NCBI RefSeq assembly: GCF_026184235.1
Contig: NZ_CP110806.1
Location: 186,001 to 250,000 of the forward strand
Length of the DNA stretch: 64,000 bases
Direction: 5' to 3'
Source: Cellulomonas sp. S1-8
GTDB taxonomy: Bacteria; Actinomycetota; Actinomycetes; Actinomycetales; Cellulomonadaceae
Every line of letters begins with the position of its first letter. Position 1 is the stretch's first letter. Below are positions 28,120 through 59,205 of this stretch, one piece after another. Position numbers and translations under genes: made by a program. The notes under the pieces were generated by a model that was not told the origin of the DNA, searched no databases, and saw nothing but the letters and a program-made list of their open reading frames with translations.

Positions 28120-28818
28120 ATGGACCTGGTGAACCCCCTGGCGGACGTCGTGCCGTCGGCGCACGGCCCGGTGCTCGCCGTGCTGGCATCTGCGACGACG
28201 CCGTTGACGGGACGCGCGATCGCCGGGCTCACGCACCCTCGCGTCTCCCAGCCGCGGGTGGCCCGCATCCTCCACGACCTCGCCGACGCGGGCCTGGCGA
28301 CCCGCGTGCCGGCCGGGTCGGCGTCGCTGTTCTCGCTCAACCGCGAGCACGTGGCCGCCGGCGCGGTCGAGGCGCTGGCGTCCCTGCGTGACCGGCTGTG
28401 GGAGCGCATCGCGACGCACGTCGACGGCTGGAACCACGAGCCCGATGCCGTCGTCGTCCACGGTGCGGCCGCGGGGGGCGCGGGCGACGCGCGCGGGGAC
28501 GTCCGCCTCCTCGTCGTCCGACCGTCCGCTCTCGACGAGGACGACGAGGACTGGCGCCGGGACCTGGCCGACCTCGCCGACCGGGTGGCGCGCTGGACCG
28601 GGAACCGCTGCGCGGTGCTCGAGCGCTCGGCGGACGAGCTGCGGACGATGGCGGCGGCCGGGGAGCAGCTGCTCACCGAGATCGGCCGTGACGGTCGCGC
28701 GGTCGTCGGCGCGATCTCGCTCGTGCCCACGTCCGGGCGGGCGGGCGTCGCCGGGCAGCAAGGTGAACGCCGGGAAGATTCGTCCCACCATTCGGACGTT
28801 CCTGTGAAGATCATGTGA
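28120..28818 (+). CDS. Winged-helix regulator with degenerate nucleotidyltransferase domain
   Basis: A 232-aa protein. The N-terminal 70 residues are an ArsR/MarR-like winged helix (LTGRAIAGLTHPRVSQPRVA, RILHDLADAGLATRV). From about residue 105 comes a nucleotidyltransferase-like segment. VHGAAAGGAGDARGDVRLLV resembles the usual GSxARGxxxxxSDIDLLV, but Ser/Arg and the second catalytic Asp are replaced. It is therefore probably a sensor rather than an enzyme. ATG 28120 follows GGGAGAG closely. It may repress its own promoter. Confidence 0.75.
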   Translation: MDLVNPLADVVPSAHGPVLAVLASATTPLTGRAIAGLTHPRVSQPRVARILHDLADAGLATRVPAGSASLFSLNREHVAAGAVEALASLRDRLWERIATHVDGWNHEPDAVVVHGAAAGGAGDARGDVRLLVVRPSALDEDDEDWRRDLADLADRVARWTGNRCAVLERSADELRTMAAAGEQLLTEIGRDGRAVVGAISLVPTSGRAGVAGQQGERREDSSHHSDVPVKIM

Positions 28819-28885
28819 CGGCGGGACTTTCGGACCGTCACTCGCGTGGCCCACGATGATGGGCCACACGAGTGTGACGCGATCG

Positions 28886-28960
28886 CGTCGTCGCAGGTCA
28901 GGGCCGGCACGCTCGGTCGACAACCGGGCATAAGGGGGCACGGGTGACCGGTGCTACGTT
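28886..28960 (+). promoter_or_regulatory. Promoter region shared with the 32.2-kb lipoprotein gene
   Basis: CGTCGTCGCAGGTCAG at 28886-28901 is repeated exactly at 32016-32031. In both places it stands 68-69 nt before a matching extended -10 (TGCTACGTT here, with TACGTT at 28955-28960). It is likely an activator or repressor site shared by the two paralogous genes. Confidence 0.6.
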
Positions 28961-28966
28961 GACGAC

Positions 28967-29066
28967 GGCCCTGGGGGAGCCGACGCATCAGGCGTCGCGC
29001 CCCCCGCACCGCCGCGCCGGGTCGTAGTCGCGTCACGCATCGCGTGTCGCCCGGTGCGCGGGTTCG
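28967..29066 (+). ncRNA. Structured mRNA leader, copy 1
   Basis: The 5' untranslated region after the TACGTT promoter holds two hairpins. Hairpin I has GGGGG (28973-28977) pairing with CCCCC (29001-29005), and an inner CGACGC / GCGTCG helix. Next come the conserved blocks GCACCGCCGC (29006-29015) and CCGGGTCGTAGTC (29017-29029). Hairpin II has CGCACCG (29005-29011) with CGGTGCG (29052-29058) and an inner CACGC / GCGTG helix. The same arrangement with different paired bases occurs at 32096-32188. No known riboswitch consensus fits to my reading. Confidence 0.55.
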
Positions 29067-29112
29067 CGTGTCGGCCCTGGCTGCGGCTGGGCACCGATCC
29101 GAGGAGCCCCGC

Positions 29113-29646
29113 GTGACCAGCTCATCCCCCACCCGCCGTCGCACGTTCGCCGTCGTCGCCGCTGCCGCCGCTGGTGTGCTGCTCGCCGCCGGCTGCACGT
29201 CCGCCGCCAGTGCCGACAACAACGCGACGCCCGACAGCGTCGTCTACGAGGGTGGGCAGACCGGCTTCGGCCAGTCGTTCACCTACGCCGACGGCCTGAT
29301 CGTGGAGGTCAAGAAGCCGGTGGAGTTCACGCCGACGCTGCAGGCCGAGGGCCTCGACGGGGTCGAGGGCGACACCGTCAAGGTCCGCATCAGCATCATC
29401 AACGGCACCGACGAGGAGTTCACCCCGGACACCCTGGGCGTGACCGTGACGTCCGACGGCCAGGAGGCCGTGCAGATCATCGACCCGGGTTCGCGCATCG
29501 ACCTCACCGGCCCGGCGCACCCGCTGGACCGCTCGGGCGTCGCTGCGTTCGACCTCGCGTTCGTCGTGGCGGACGTGGACGACGTCACGCTGAGCCTTGT
29601 CCCCGCCCTCCTCGGCTACGACCCGCTGGTCGTCACCGCCGGCTGA
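29113..29646 (+). CDS. Lipoprotein of a three-member paralogous family (member 1)
   Basis: A 177-aa lipoprotein. The signal peptide ends in a lipobox (LLAAGCTSA). The mature part has a beta-sandwich pattern: FGQSFTYADGLIVEVKKPVE, VKVRISIINGTDEEFTPDTL, then PGSRIDLTG and LSLVPALLGYDPLVV. This resembles telomeric-repeat-binding-factor-2-like DUF4352 lipoproteins of actinobacteria, which are extracellular and unassigned. GTG 29113 has GAGGAG 8 nt upstream. The 3' end overlaps the convergent YibE/F gene by 31 nt. A structured leader precedes it. Confidence 0.82.
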   Translation: MTSSSPTRRRTFAVVAAAAAGVLLAAGCTSAASADNNATPDSVVYEGGQTGFGQSFTYADGLIVEVKKPVEFTPTLQAEGLDGVEGDTVKVRISIINGTDEEFTPDTLGVTVTSDGQEAVQIIDPGSRIDLTGPAHPLDRSGVAAFDLAFVVADVDDVTLSLVPALLGYDPLVVTAG

Positions 29647-30956
29647 CGCCCGACGCGGGGGCCGGCGAGCTCCGCGGACGGGGCAGCGCTGAGCCGCACG
29701 AACGTCGCGGCCAGCGCGGTGGTCACGGGGATCGCCAGGACCAGGCCGACGGACCCGACGAGGGTGCGGACGACCTCCTCGGCGATCTCCCCGCTGGTCA
29801 GCAGGCCCAACAGGTCGCGGTCGGACAGGCTGACCAGCAGCACGAGCGGCAGGGCCGCGCCGACGTACGCGAAGACGATCGTGTAGACGGTCGACGCGAT
29901 GTGGTCGCGGCCGATCCGCATGCCCTGGGAGTACAGCGAGCGCCACGACCGCCCGGGGTTCGCGGCGTGCAGCTCCCACACCGCGGACGCCTGCGTGATG
30001 GTCACGTCGTTGAGCACGCCGAGCCCGGCCAGGACCATGCCGCAGACCAGGACGGCGCGCAGCCGCACCTCGGGCGCGACGGACATGAGGTCGAGCGCGT
30101 ACTCCCCCGACAGACCCGTCAGGTGCGCCGAGCCGCCCGCCCAGGCGGCGATGCCGGCGGTCGCGACGAGCCCCACGAGCGTCCCGGCGAGCGCGGTGGA
30201 CGTGCGCACCGACACCCCGTGCGCCAGGTAGAGGACCGCGAACATGACCGCGACGCCGGTGACCAGCGCGACGGGGATGGCGGGTCGGCCCTGCAGCAGC
30301 GCCGGCAGGGTGAACCCGGCGACGACGGACAGCCCCACCGCCATGCCGACGAGCGCCGCGAGCCCCCGCCACCGGGCGACGAGCACGACGAGCAGCGCGA
30401 ACGCGGCCGCGAGCAGCGCCATCGGCGGCCCGCGCACGAAGTCGACGAAGACGTACTGCGTGGTCATCGCCTCGGGGTCGGCGGCCGGGTCGAACGCGAT
30501 CGCCGCGACCGCCATGCGGGCCGCCCGCACGGTGTCGCCCACGGCCAGCTCCGGGACGTACTCCGGCGGCACGTTCAGGTCGACCTGCTCACCGTCCGCG
30601 AGGCGGACGACGGCCTGATCCGTCGCGGTCGAGTCGGGACGCACCTCGACGACGTCGCCGCGCACGTAGGAGACCCCGGGTCCGTCGGTCGCGAACTGCG
30701 GGGGGTGGGCGTCGGGGTCGGGCCACAGCAGCCACGCGCCGAGCCCGGTGAGCAGGGCGACGGGCACGAGCACCCACGCCAGCAGCACCCGGGCGCGGTG
30801 CACCGACGCCACGGGCAGCGGGGTGCCGCCGTGCCCGTGGGCGTGCGCCTGCCACGCGTCCGGCTCGACGGCCACGTCCTCGTCCTGCGCCACCGCCACA
30901 CCCTCGCCGCCGACCGCGCCACCGCGCCGCACGCCACGCCGCGGACCGCAGGTCAC
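29616..30956 (-). CDS. YibE/F-family membrane protein (second member)
   Basis: A 446-aa integral membrane protein. The N-terminal tail has a His cluster (WQAHAHGHGG). After one helix (VLLAWVLVPVALLTGLGAWL) there is a soluble segment (VRLADGEQVDLNVPPEYVPE). Seven or eight helices follow. It shares the family core with the 17722-19026 protein: GVLNDVTITQASAVWELHAA and GRDHIASTVYTIVFAYVGAA. The start GTG 30956 is uncertain, and internal GTGs exist. It converges on, and overlaps, lipoprotein member 1, and it is divergent from member 2. The role is unknown. Confidence 0.86.
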   Translation of the reverse strand: MTCGPRRGVRRGGAVGGEGVAVAQDEDVAVEPDAWQAHAHGHGGTPLPVASVHRARVLLAWVLVPVALLTGLGAWLLWPDPDAHPPQFATDGPGVSYVRGDVVEVRPDSTATDQAVVRLADGEQVDLNVPPEYVPELAVGDTVRAARMAVAAIAFDPAADPEAMTTQYVFVDFVRGPPMALLAAAFALLVVLVARWRGLAALVGMAVGLSVVAGFTLPALLQGRPAIPVALVTGVAVMFAVLYLAHGVSVRTSTALAGTLVGLVATAGIAAWAGGSAHLTGLSGEYALDLMSVAPEVRLRAVLVCGMVLAGLGVLNDVTITQASAVWELHAANPGRSWRSLYSQGMRIGRDHIASTVYTIVFAYVGAALPLVLLVSLSDRDLLGLLTSGEIAEEVVRTLVGSVGLVLAIPVTTALAATFVRLSAAPSAELAGPRVGRQPAVTTSGS

Positions 30957-31038
30957 AGCCCGCGCTCACCTGGTGAGAGCCTGATGTGAAAGCCCGTTTT
31001 GTAACCGTTTAGGCACCTGCTTTCGAACGGCGCCACGC

Positions 31039-31089
31039 TACTTTTCGGCAGTCGGGGACGCGAGACGGAGCGCCCCGACCCCCTCCGTC
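31039..31089 (+). ncRNA. Leader with potential H-type pseudoknot
   Basis: After a TACTTT -10 (31039-31044) two perfect 7-bp helices interlock. GTCGGGG (31051-31057) pairs with CCCCGAC (31073-31079). GACGGAG (31064-31070), in the loop of the first, pairs with CTCCGTC (31083-31089). This is the geometry of an H-type pseudoknot. It lies about 105 nt before the coding region of the paralogous protein 2. Confidence 0.45.
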
Positions 31090-31193
31090 GCCGCATCAGC
31101 CCTGGCTGTGCCATGCCCGACGACGGGGCCCGTCACGGTGGGCGCCGGCGCGACCGGACCAGCCCGCCGGTCCGCCGAGCTCAGGGAGAGCGT

Positions 31194-31892
31194 GTGACCA
31201 CCGAACGATCCGACGCCCGCAGCGCGCCCGCGCACACGATCGACTCCGTCCCCACCCCGCGCTCCGGAGTCCGCACGGGCTTCGGCGTCGCGACCGGCCT
31301 GCGCTCGTCGGAGGCCGTCGTCCTCCCTGCGGAGGAGCCGGAGCGCCGCAGCCGGGCCGTCACGATCGCGGCGGCACTGCTCGCGGTCGTCGCGGTCGTC
31401 GCGGCCGTCGTCGCGTTCCGCATCATCGTGCCGACCACCCCCGTGGCAGAGGCGCGGTCGAGCGCGGTCGAGCAGGCCACCGGCGAGATCCGGGAGCAGC
31501 CGGGCTCGATCGTCGACTTCGGCCAGGAGTACACGTACGGGGACGGGCTCGAGGTCGCGATCAACCTGCCGCAGGGCTACGAGCCCAGCAGCAACGCCAC
31601 CGGGGTCGAGAGCGGTGTGCCGACCAAGGTGCAGGTGGTCCTCACCAACCGCACGACGGAGCCGTTCCGTCCCAACACCCTGCAGGTGTACGCGACGGCC
31701 GCCGGTCAGGAGGCCCCCGCGGTCTGGGACCCCGACCAGGGCGTCGGTCTGACCGGGCCCGACGTCAGCGTCCCGGCGGGGTCGACCATCCAGTTCAACA
31801 TGGCGTTCGCCCCCGTCGACCCGCTGGACCTGCGGCTCGAGATCACGCCGGCGCTGTACGGCTACGGGCCGATGATCGTCCAGCGCCCCTGA
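31194..31892 (+). CDS. Membrane-anchored paralogue of the lipoprotein family (member 2)
   Basis: A 232-aa protein that replaces the lipoprotein signal with a cytoplasmic N terminus of about 75 residues and one helix (AVTIAAALLAVVAVVAAVVA). The outer domain aligns with the neighbours: FGQEYTYGDGLEVAINLPQG, TKVQVVLTNRTTEPFRPNTL, DPDQGVGLTGP and LEITPALYGYGPMIV. GTG 31194 follows GGGAGAG. It is therefore the transmembrane version of the same unknown extracellular fold. A GGGACGTCCC palindrome near 31904 may help end transcription. Confidence 0.8.
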   Translation: MTTERSDARSAPAHTIDSVPTPRSGVRTGFGVATGLRSSEAVVLPAEEPERRSRAVTIAAALLAVVAVVAAVVAFRIIVPTTPVAEARSSAVEQATGEIREQPGSIVDFGQEYTYGDGLEVAINLPQGYEPSSNATGVESGVPTKVQVVLTNRTTEPFRPNTLQVYATAAGQEAPAVWDPDQGVGLTGPDVSVPAGSTIQFNMAFAPVDPLDLRLEITPALYGYGPMIVQRP

Positions 31893-31984
31893 GCGCGGGC
31901 GCGGGACGTCCCGTCCCGCATGGTGGACAGCGTGTCAACAGCGTGTAACGAGTCCCTCCCTCGAGGTCGCCCGACCGGCCCAGC

Positions 31985-31996
31985 GACCGGCCGGTC
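31985..31996. promoter_or_regulatory. Perfect 12-bp palindrome GACCGGCCGGTC
   Basis: A perfect palindrome 20 nt before the conserved CGTCGTCGCAGGTCAG box of the member 3 promoter. Such GC palindromes occur by chance in this genome, so a role as an operator is only possible. Confidence 0.3.
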
Positions 31997-32015
31997 GGTC
32001 GAGCGTGGGACGGTA

Positions 32016-32089
32016 CGTCGTCGCAGGTCAGAGCCCTTGTTTCGAGACTGCTACGCGTCCCCGGCTGCCGGGTGAGCCCCTGCTAGCTT
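32016..32089 (+). promoter_or_regulatory. Promoter region matching that at 28.9 kb
   Basis: CGTCGTCGCAGGTCAG (32016-32031) stands 68 nt before TAGCTT (32084-32089), in a TGCTAGCTT extended -10. The match in sequence and distance to the copy at 28886-28960 shows that the whole regulatory region was duplicated or kept under selection. Confidence 0.6.
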
Positions 32090-32095
32090 GGCGAT

Positions 32096-32200
32096 CGCCC
32101 ACGGGGAGCCGCACGGTCACGACCGTCGCCTCCCCGCACCGCCGCACCGGGTCGTGGTCACGCCGCACGTCGCGGCGAGGCGGTGCGGGTGCCCGCGCGT
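32096..32200 (+). ncRNA. Structured mRNA leader, copy 2
   Basis: Hairpin I has CGGGGAG (32102-32108) paired with CTCCCCG (32130-32136), and an inner ACGGT / ACCGT helix. It is followed by GCACCGCCGC (32136-32145) and CCGGGTCGTGGTC (32147-32159). Hairpin II has CCGCACCGCC (32134-32143) paired with GGCGGTGCGG (32179-32188), and an inner CGCCGC / GCGGCG helix. The inner helices differ in sequence from copy 1 but keep pairing. The feet of hairpins I and II overlap by three bases and could compete. Confidence 0.55.
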
Positions 32201-32236
32201 CGGGGCCGCGCCGGGGCAAGGACCCAGGAGTCACGC

Positions 32237-32797
32237 GTGACCACTCCCACCCCCGCTCCCACCGGTGCCGCCGCCCGCCGCCTGCGGACGCGCGCCACCG
32301 CGGCGGTCGCCCTCGCCGCCGCCGCGCTCCTCGTCGCCTCGGGCTGCGCCGCCACGGCGAACGCCGAGTCCGGGACCCCCGACGCGGCCGCGACCCACGC
32401 GGGCGCCGAGCTGACGTTCGGCACCCCCTTCGAGTACGCCGACGGCCTGTTCGTGCAGGTCAAGCAGCCCGCGCGCTTCACGCCGACGGCCCAGGCGGAG
32501 TGGGACCGCAGTGTCGAGGGCGTGCCCGTGCGCATCCGGCTGACGATCACCAACGGCACGCGCGAGGAGTACATCGCGCACACGCTCAGCGCGACCGTCG
32601 AGTCCGGCGGCCAGGCGGCGGCGCAGATCGTCGACCCGGGCACCCAGATCGACCTGACAGGCCCGAGCCTCACGCTCACGACCGCCGGCGTCGTGAACTT
32701 CGACCTCGCGTTCGTCGTGCAGGACCCCTCCGACGTCACCCTGACGGTAGTCCCGGCGCTCGGTGGGTACGAGCCGCTGGTGCTCACGACCGGCTGA
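32237..32797 (+). CDS. Lipoprotein of the three-member family (member 3)
   Basis: A 186-aa lipoprotein with lipobox LVASGCAAT. The mature part is FGTPFEYADGLFVQVKQPAR, VRIRLTITNGTREEYIAHTL, PGTQIDLTG and LTVVPALGGYEPLVL, closely matching member 1. GTG 32237 follows CAGGAG at 7 nt. It shares promoter, leader and coding similarity with the gene at 29113. The two are presumably a duplicated transcription unit separated by the YibE/F gene and member 2. The function is unknown; it is extracellular. Confidence 0.82.
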   Translation: MTTPTPAPTGAAARRLRTRATAAVALAAAALLVASGCAATANAESGTPDAAATHAGAELTFGTPFEYADGLFVQVKQPARFTPTAQAEWDRSVEGVPVRIRLTITNGTREEYIAHTLSATVESGGQAAAQIVDPGTQIDLTGPSLTLTTAGVVNFDLAFVVQDPSDVTLTVVPALGGYEPLVLTTG

Positions 32798-59036: not shown

Positions 59037-59147
59037 CCGGGGCTGTGCGGGCTCCGCAGGGGTGGAGGGTGGTGAGGTGCCGCACCATCCGGGCCGGGTG
59101 GGCGGTCGCGTGCGAGCATGGTGGTGGGCCCGCGTCAGCGCAGGTCC

Positions 59148-59190
59148 CCGGACGAGGGGCGCCGTACCCGGAGAGCGACAAGACGGCAGC
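59148..59190 (+). ncRNA. Guanidine-III riboswitch
   Basis: CCGGACGAGGGGCGCCGTAC at 59148-59167 continues with CCGGAGAG and ends with GACAAGACGGC. This closely matches the Thermobifida guanidine-III (ykkC-III) aptamer as I remember it. GCGCCGT pairs with ACGGC, and the 5' CCGG can pair with the internal CCGG to form the pseudoknot. The GGAGGT ribosome binding site of the exporter gene begins 5 nt downstream. Binding of guanidinium would therefore expose it and turn on expression. Confidence 0.9.
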
Positions 59191-59205
59191 CACCGGAGGT
59201 CTGCC

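Follow-up and report, generated by a model that had tools for sequence, protein, structure and literature searches.

The ydaO c-di-AMP riboswitch serves as a leader of exported-protein genes, among them actinobacterial cell-wall genes, and the ZTP riboswitch has a consensus that contains a GGGUCGUG-like string. Further actinobacterial candidate RNAs, msiK, mraW and Actino-pnp, are tabulated as cis-regulatory in PMC2864571. Here we describe two copies of a leader RNA that precede two paralogous lipoprotein genes of Cellulomonas sp. S1-8 (NZ_CP110806.1, positions 186,001 to 250,000 of a 4.5 Mb genome; this 64,000-nucleotide stretch is the window of our analysis). The leader resembles ydaO in standing before exported-protein genes, without matching the ydaO model, and differs from ZTP in its downstream gene. 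Like msiK, mraW and Actino-pnp it is an unclassified cis-regulatory candidate, in this case preceding a single gene family as a structured 5′ leader; unlike them it matches no Rfam family and is so far known from part of one genus. We judge it to be a real, unclassified and genus-restricted structured 5′ leader, which is probably cis-regulatory. Its homology, hairpins P1 and P3, a near-invariant block and its gene association are shown computationally.

A first-pass annotation of the window, made from the letters alone, had reported that both upstream regions share CGTCGTCGCAGGTCAG, an extended −10 at a matching distance, and a leader in which invariant blocks are combined with stems that differ between the copies yet remain paired. 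Direct reading agreed with each of these points (Table 1): the distance from the start of CGTCGTCGCAGGTCAG to the extended −10 is 66 nt in copy 1 and 65 nt in copy 2, i.e. equal to within 1 nt, the core blocks follow the common pattern GCACCGCCGC(G/A)CCGGGTCGT(A/G)GTC, and both the inner P1 and the P3 arms differ in sequence while staying complementary. Two copies by themselves could not reveal covariation; what carries the observation beyond chance is the recovery of 13 homologous leaders from 11 of 81 genus genomes, together with the shuffle results for P1 and P3.

A protein search with lipoprotein 1 gave matches in 21 of the 81 genomes, and the leader was found upstream of the best of these (12 leaders). 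Covariance model R1 was built from these 12, i.e. from leaders themselves found upstream of the protein. Searching with such a model, as the first-pass annotation had suggested, returned 13 leaders (E 4e-14 to 2e-5): the 12 model-building sequences and one new leader in G184 (our genome numbering, G000 being S1-8 itself). Twelve of the 13 lie directly upstream of a lipoprotein gene, as judged with predicted promoters and start codons; the G184 leader stands at a contig end, and the G184 lipoprotein begins another contig. Viewed from the protein side, the 13 best matches (E ≤ 3.8e-39) have the leader directly upstream in 12 cases, the G184 sequence being cut there. The next-ranked matches, in G188, G176 and G206, carry a different leader, which suggests gain or replacement of the element between lineages. 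By eye, the leader of these genomes (L080, L081 and L082) contains a GGCCGG-to-CCCCGG inverted repeat in the same place. Both G000 and G173 have two leaders, one per paralogue type; since the protein tree separates the copy-1 and copy-2 types and the leader occurs in both lineages, it was apparently retained from the duplication onwards.

The whole-genome R1 search of the 81 genus genomes gave no further leaders below E 0.02. Matches at E ∼0.02 in G093, G187 and G202 (L111 to L113) were judged to be chance and stand outside all counts; L111 and L112 lie on the opposite strand of a small Lys/Arg-rich open reading frame (ORF), and L113 is the same stretch reversed. A 23-bit match (L098) was also left out. 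Beyond the genus, the search of 200 genomes of the family turned up no firm leader (two matches at E ∼0.04, in G111 and G065), and among 296 genomes of the phylum only the own genome matched at E ≤ 0.01; the genus, family and phylum model searches were run with stricter filters, at which some weak matches are lost. In 396 genomes of the order, the core pattern with ≤ 3 mismatches had matches in 86; among the matches listed, the exact ones were in G000 (two) and G131 (one), all others having two or three mismatches, and a reversed-pattern control gave counts that by eye were of similar magnitude. The family, order and phylum draws each included the own genome. A second model, R2, applied to 35 further loci, found nothing below E 0.1 except the known G163 leader, and the loci of lipoprotein relatives (L174 to L189; 14 from other genera, two from this genus) held no leader match below E 0.69. 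BLAST with the leader DNA produced matches in many family genomes, most of them short and GC-rich; these were rejected, as was a match in G109 that lay within an apparent coding sequence and lacked the core.

In agreement with the first-pass annotation, which had recognized no known class, none of 4227 Rfam 15 families matched the leaders at its gathering score. The best match was mir-8338 (E 0.24; 22.3 bits versus a gathering score of 80), and the models of ZTP (pfl, RF01750) and ydaO gave no match at E ≤ 5 in 28850-32300 and none at E ≤ 1 in eight leader loci of relatives. The only Rfam matches in the window at gathering score, a tRNA and a Guanidine-III riboswitch (59125-59193; 52 bits versus a gathering score of 36), are both away from the leaders. 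Literature titles retrieved for Cellulomonas with riboswitch or transcription start site include none on a leader RNA; one Cellulomonas title concerns the Ms1 small RNA (PMC9130861). Searches on candidate structured RNAs and on DUF4352/lipoprotein gave no title on the leader among the matches listed, a search on MPT63, YjhA and DUF4352 found nothing, and the main texts of PMC8632094, PMC11109978 and PMC2864571 contain the words Cellulomonas and lipoprotein 0 times each.

To evaluate the hairpins independently of any alignment, the segments of individual leaders were compared with dinucleotide shuffles. At p < 0.05, nine of the 13 P1 segments and 11 of the 13 P3 segments folded better than their shuffles. 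The linker between hairpins and gene did so in one leader alone, G173b (1 of 13; Fisher p 0.008 over nine thinned leaders). Covariation was scored on hand-paired tables against a tree-aware null, in which an equal number of changes was placed on the protein tree (n = 2000). P3 reached 0.234 versus 0.031 for the null and inner P1 0.345 versus 0.059, and in neither case was any of the 2000 nulls as high. One P3 pair occurs as A-U and G-C, another as C-G, U-A, U-G and G-U, and a third as G-C and A-U; inner-P1 pairs vary in type as well. With the model-fitted alignment A4, 0 of 500 shuffles matched the covariation score. On the hand-paired and model-fitted alignments and the single-leader shuffles, inner P1 and P3 are helices kept by compensatory change, the signal being weak on the sequence-only alignment A2. 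The proposal of a structured leader whose stems change and stay complementary is thus upheld by the covariation and shuffle tests of P1 and P3.

Several observations weigh against this structure. P1 was not significant in G173a, G140, G184 and G208, nor P3 in G140 and G173b; the second of the P3 pairs above also occurs as U-U, in 4 of 13 leaders, and just 72% of inner-P1 cells are paired (the rows of G140, G184 and G173b, which have no clear helix, were counted mostly unpaired). Pairing the tables by hand introduces a real bias, and A4 was itself fitted to structure. On A2, the covariation score was reached by 64 of 500 shuffles and the percentage of paired cells by 67 of 500, while the number of cells changed on both sides was matched by 1 of 500. 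Covariation, the check put forward in the first-pass annotation, holds on the hand-paired and model-fitted alignments but rises weakly above shuffles on the sequence-only one. Neither of the outcomes by which that annotation would have been refuted, a lack of homologues in related genomes or uncompensated change in the stems, was seen. Moreover, RNAalifold on A2 favoured another pairing over the drawn P2 and P3, in which the second repeat GCRCCGG pairs with CCGGTGC and the core CGTGG with bases of the P3 region; 1 of the 21 pairs in this alternative fold changed on both sides. Finally, the stability of the two leaders as a whole is unremarkable (z -0.75 and -0.39), and segments spanning P2 and P3 folded no better than shuffles (13 rows, three of them faulty).

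Between P1 and P3 lies the 24-nt core. Across 12 leaders, the mean commonest-base frequency of GCACCGCCGCRCCGGGTCGTRGTC is 0.96, versus 0.97 for the −10 element, 0.72 for P1, 0.78 for P3 and 0.76 for the linker (G184 was left out of the analyses of core conservation, sequence-only covariation, −10 alignment, 5′-end helix, P2 forcing and ribosome-binding site (RBS) pairing). That the core adjoins the promoter and is conserved to the same degree, together with an upstream element conserved in part of the leader set, would also fit a DNA-level element, i.e. a site immediately 3′ of the promoter to which a DNA-binding protein attaches. We regard this as distinctly improbable: flanking stems that change and stay complementary are needless for a DNA site, and by direct reading the block is not palindromic. 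Conservation as a translated upstream peptide, which the long open GC-rich frames spanning the leader might suggest, is nearly excluded, as the frame from core to gene varies (mod 3 = 0, 1 and 2), length differences of 1-2 nt occur in or just after the block (G140, G173b and G148), and no start codon occurs in copy 1 between the leader start and the core end. An upstream-ORF attenuation leader was likewise rejected, there being no conserved start codon or reading frame.

The −10 consensus across the 12 aligned leaders is TG(C/T)TA(C/G)(C/G)TT. Further upstream, TCGNCGCAGGTCAG is exact in 7 of 13 leaders, has one mismatch in G148 and G163 and more in G196, and is lost in G173a, G211 and G208. 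In the own genome, the element TCGnCGCAGGTCAG has four exact sites, two of which belong to these leaders; at ≤ 1 mismatch there are 51 forward and 25 reverse sites, versus 15 and 14 for the reversed pattern. The third exact site (L150) falls inside a long open frame. The fourth (L151), on the minus strand, precedes by ∼250 bases an ORF whose product, on visual inspection, resembles a solute-binding lipoprotein.

The first-pass annotation had described the invariant blocks as single-stranded. Their conservation is evident; single-strandedness is not, since two parts of the core have complementary partners. GCACCG is complementary to CGGTGC 3′ of P3 in 11 of 13 leaders, the 3′ arm being one base short in G131 and G151. 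The pairs of this putative helix P2 never vary, so that they show zero covariation and P2 is beyond covariation testing. P2 is part of the best fold in some leaders, and imposing it on the 10 leaders analysed raises the energy above that of the best fold by 0 (copy 2, G148 and G208) to 7.6 kcal/mol (copy 1). The zero covariation, the short arms and the cost of forcing speak against P2, which is nevertheless consistent with the sequences. The other part, GGGTCGTRGTC, has its complement at the promoter-proximal 5′ end, matching at 11 of 11 positions in G131, G151, G173a and G163, at 10 of 11 in copy 1, G196 and G208, and at fewer in the other six leaders. Of 12 leaders, nine gave p ≤ 0.02 for this pairing against mono-nucleotide shuffles, the exceptions being copy 2, G140 and G173b; the 5′ window used here was one base off that of the register test described below. 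We retain the 5′-end/core helix as a possibility.

We consider it probable that both lipoprotein mRNAs begin with a conserved cis-acting RNA leader of ∼90 nt that is read by a trans-acting factor. In the proposed architecture, P1 near the 5′ end is followed by the 24-nt block, P3 and the short closing helix P2; formation of P2 would bring the block into a compact domain, from which a variable linker of ∼50 nt would lead to the ribosome site. Recognition of the block, whether by a small molecule or an RNA-binding protein, would result in control of translation or of mRNA life of the envelope lipoprotein.

Regulation through recognition of the leader by a protein or small molecule ranks first. 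Next comes a passive 5′ stabilizer or ribosome standby site, in which the hairpins would protect the 5′ end of the mRNA or set the spacing of the ribosome without sensing a signal. P1 begins within ∼10 nt of the predicted transcription start, and steady expression would be plausible for surface lipoprotein genes, but conservation of the 24-nt block above that of the hairpins is left unexplained; we hold this explanation to be unlikely. More doubtful is a true riboswitch, a special case of the regulatory leader in which the core and P2 bind a metabolite, perhaps with the 5′-end/GGGTCGTRGTC helix crossing P2. It would account for a near-invariant core flanked by covarying hairpins, and the 5′-end complementarity is register-specific (90.0% of cells paired in register versus 21.4-51.9% when slid). 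Yet the element serves one gene family in part of one genus, the 5′-end helix shows no two-sided change (0 of 11 pairs; 283 of 500 shuffles were as good), and the transcription start may fall downstream of its outer half. Nor did a clear expression platform emerge, RBS pairing being at chance in 12 leaders and the linker significant only in G173b. Sequestration of the RBS had been suggested by the RNAalifold consensus of seven copy-1-type leaders, in which the P2 3′ arm lies across the Shine-Dalgarno sequence; it was rejected as no better than chance (mean z -0.68; 12 leaders, 1000 dinucleotide shuffles each), with G173b alone below 0.05 (p 0.02), and this result also counts against regulatory control of that kind. 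Most speculative of the regulatory readings is a genus-restricted sensory RNA class, in which a pseudoknot of 5′ end/GGGUCGURGUC and CGGUGC/GCACCG would bind an envelope signal, either a metabolite or a protein, and set lipoprotein levels.

Table 1. Coordinates of the leader features and lipoprotein genes in the window.
Feature	Copy	Positions	Strand	Details
Conserved upstream element CGTCGTCGCAGGTCAG	1	28886..28901	+	direct reading; possible activator site
Conserved upstream element CGTCGTCGCAGGTCAG	2	32016..32031	+	direct reading
Extended −10 TGCTACGTT	1	28952..28960	+	predicted transcription start near 28967
Extended −10 TGCTAGCTT	2	32081..32089	+	predicted transcription start near 32096
Hairpin P1 (GGGGGAG...CGACGC/GCGTCG...CCCCCC)	1	28973..29005	+	z -4.54, p 0.002
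Hairpin P1 (GGGGAG...ACGGT/ACCGT...CTCCCC)	2	32103..32135	+	z -2.93, p 0.012
Near-invariant core GCACCGCCGCGCCGGGTCGTAGTC	1	29006..29029	+	24 nt
Near-invariant core GCACCGCCGCACCGGGTCGTGGTC	2	32136..32159	+	24 nt
Hairpin P3 (GCG.CACGC/GCGTG.CGC)	1	29030..29050	+	z -3.85, p 0.003
Hairpin P3 (CGCCGC/GCGGCG)	2	32161..32177	+	z -2.56, p 0.017
Putative P2 3′ arm CGGTGC	1	29052..29057	+	complementary to GCACCG 29006-29011
Putative P2 3′ arm CGGTGC	2	32181..32186	+	P2 within best fold of copy 2
Lipoprotein gene 1	1	29113..29646	+	177 aa, GTG start, invariant lipobox-type cysteine
Lipoprotein gene 2	2	32237..32797	+	186 aa

The products of genes 1 and 2 are 54% identical. Between the two genes lie a third, more distant paralogue (31194-31892; 33% identity), whose leader is unlike the two shared ones, and a YibE/F gene on the minus strand. 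A Pfam search with the lipoprotein gave zero matches above the cut-off. The AlphaFold model of the gene 2 product (pLDDT 80.6, pTM 0.67) is similar to the beta-sandwiches of YjhA (3cfu) and MPT63 (1lmi), a likeness that gives the lipoprotein a predicted fold and no role. The leader of the middle paralogue (31030-31193), aligned from six genomes, is conserved and of another type, with a hairpin (GACGC...AGCGTC in five relatives) that a C-rich run follows; the blocks GTGAGAG....ATGTGA and CGTTTA upstream are conserved as well. Upstream of gene 1, an inverted repeat GTGACGG...CCGTCAC (28815-28841) overlaps the 3′ end of the preceding ORF and is probably its terminator; several relatives have a similar sequence.

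The leader is a candidate RNA absent from Rfam 15, of narrow range and within a known kind of element, and it ties an RNA element to a lipoprotein family. Should the leader be sensory, the signal it detects would tell what these surface lipoproteins respond to. Because its distribution is narrow and two paralogues have retained it, it offers a small test case for the origin of structured leaders.

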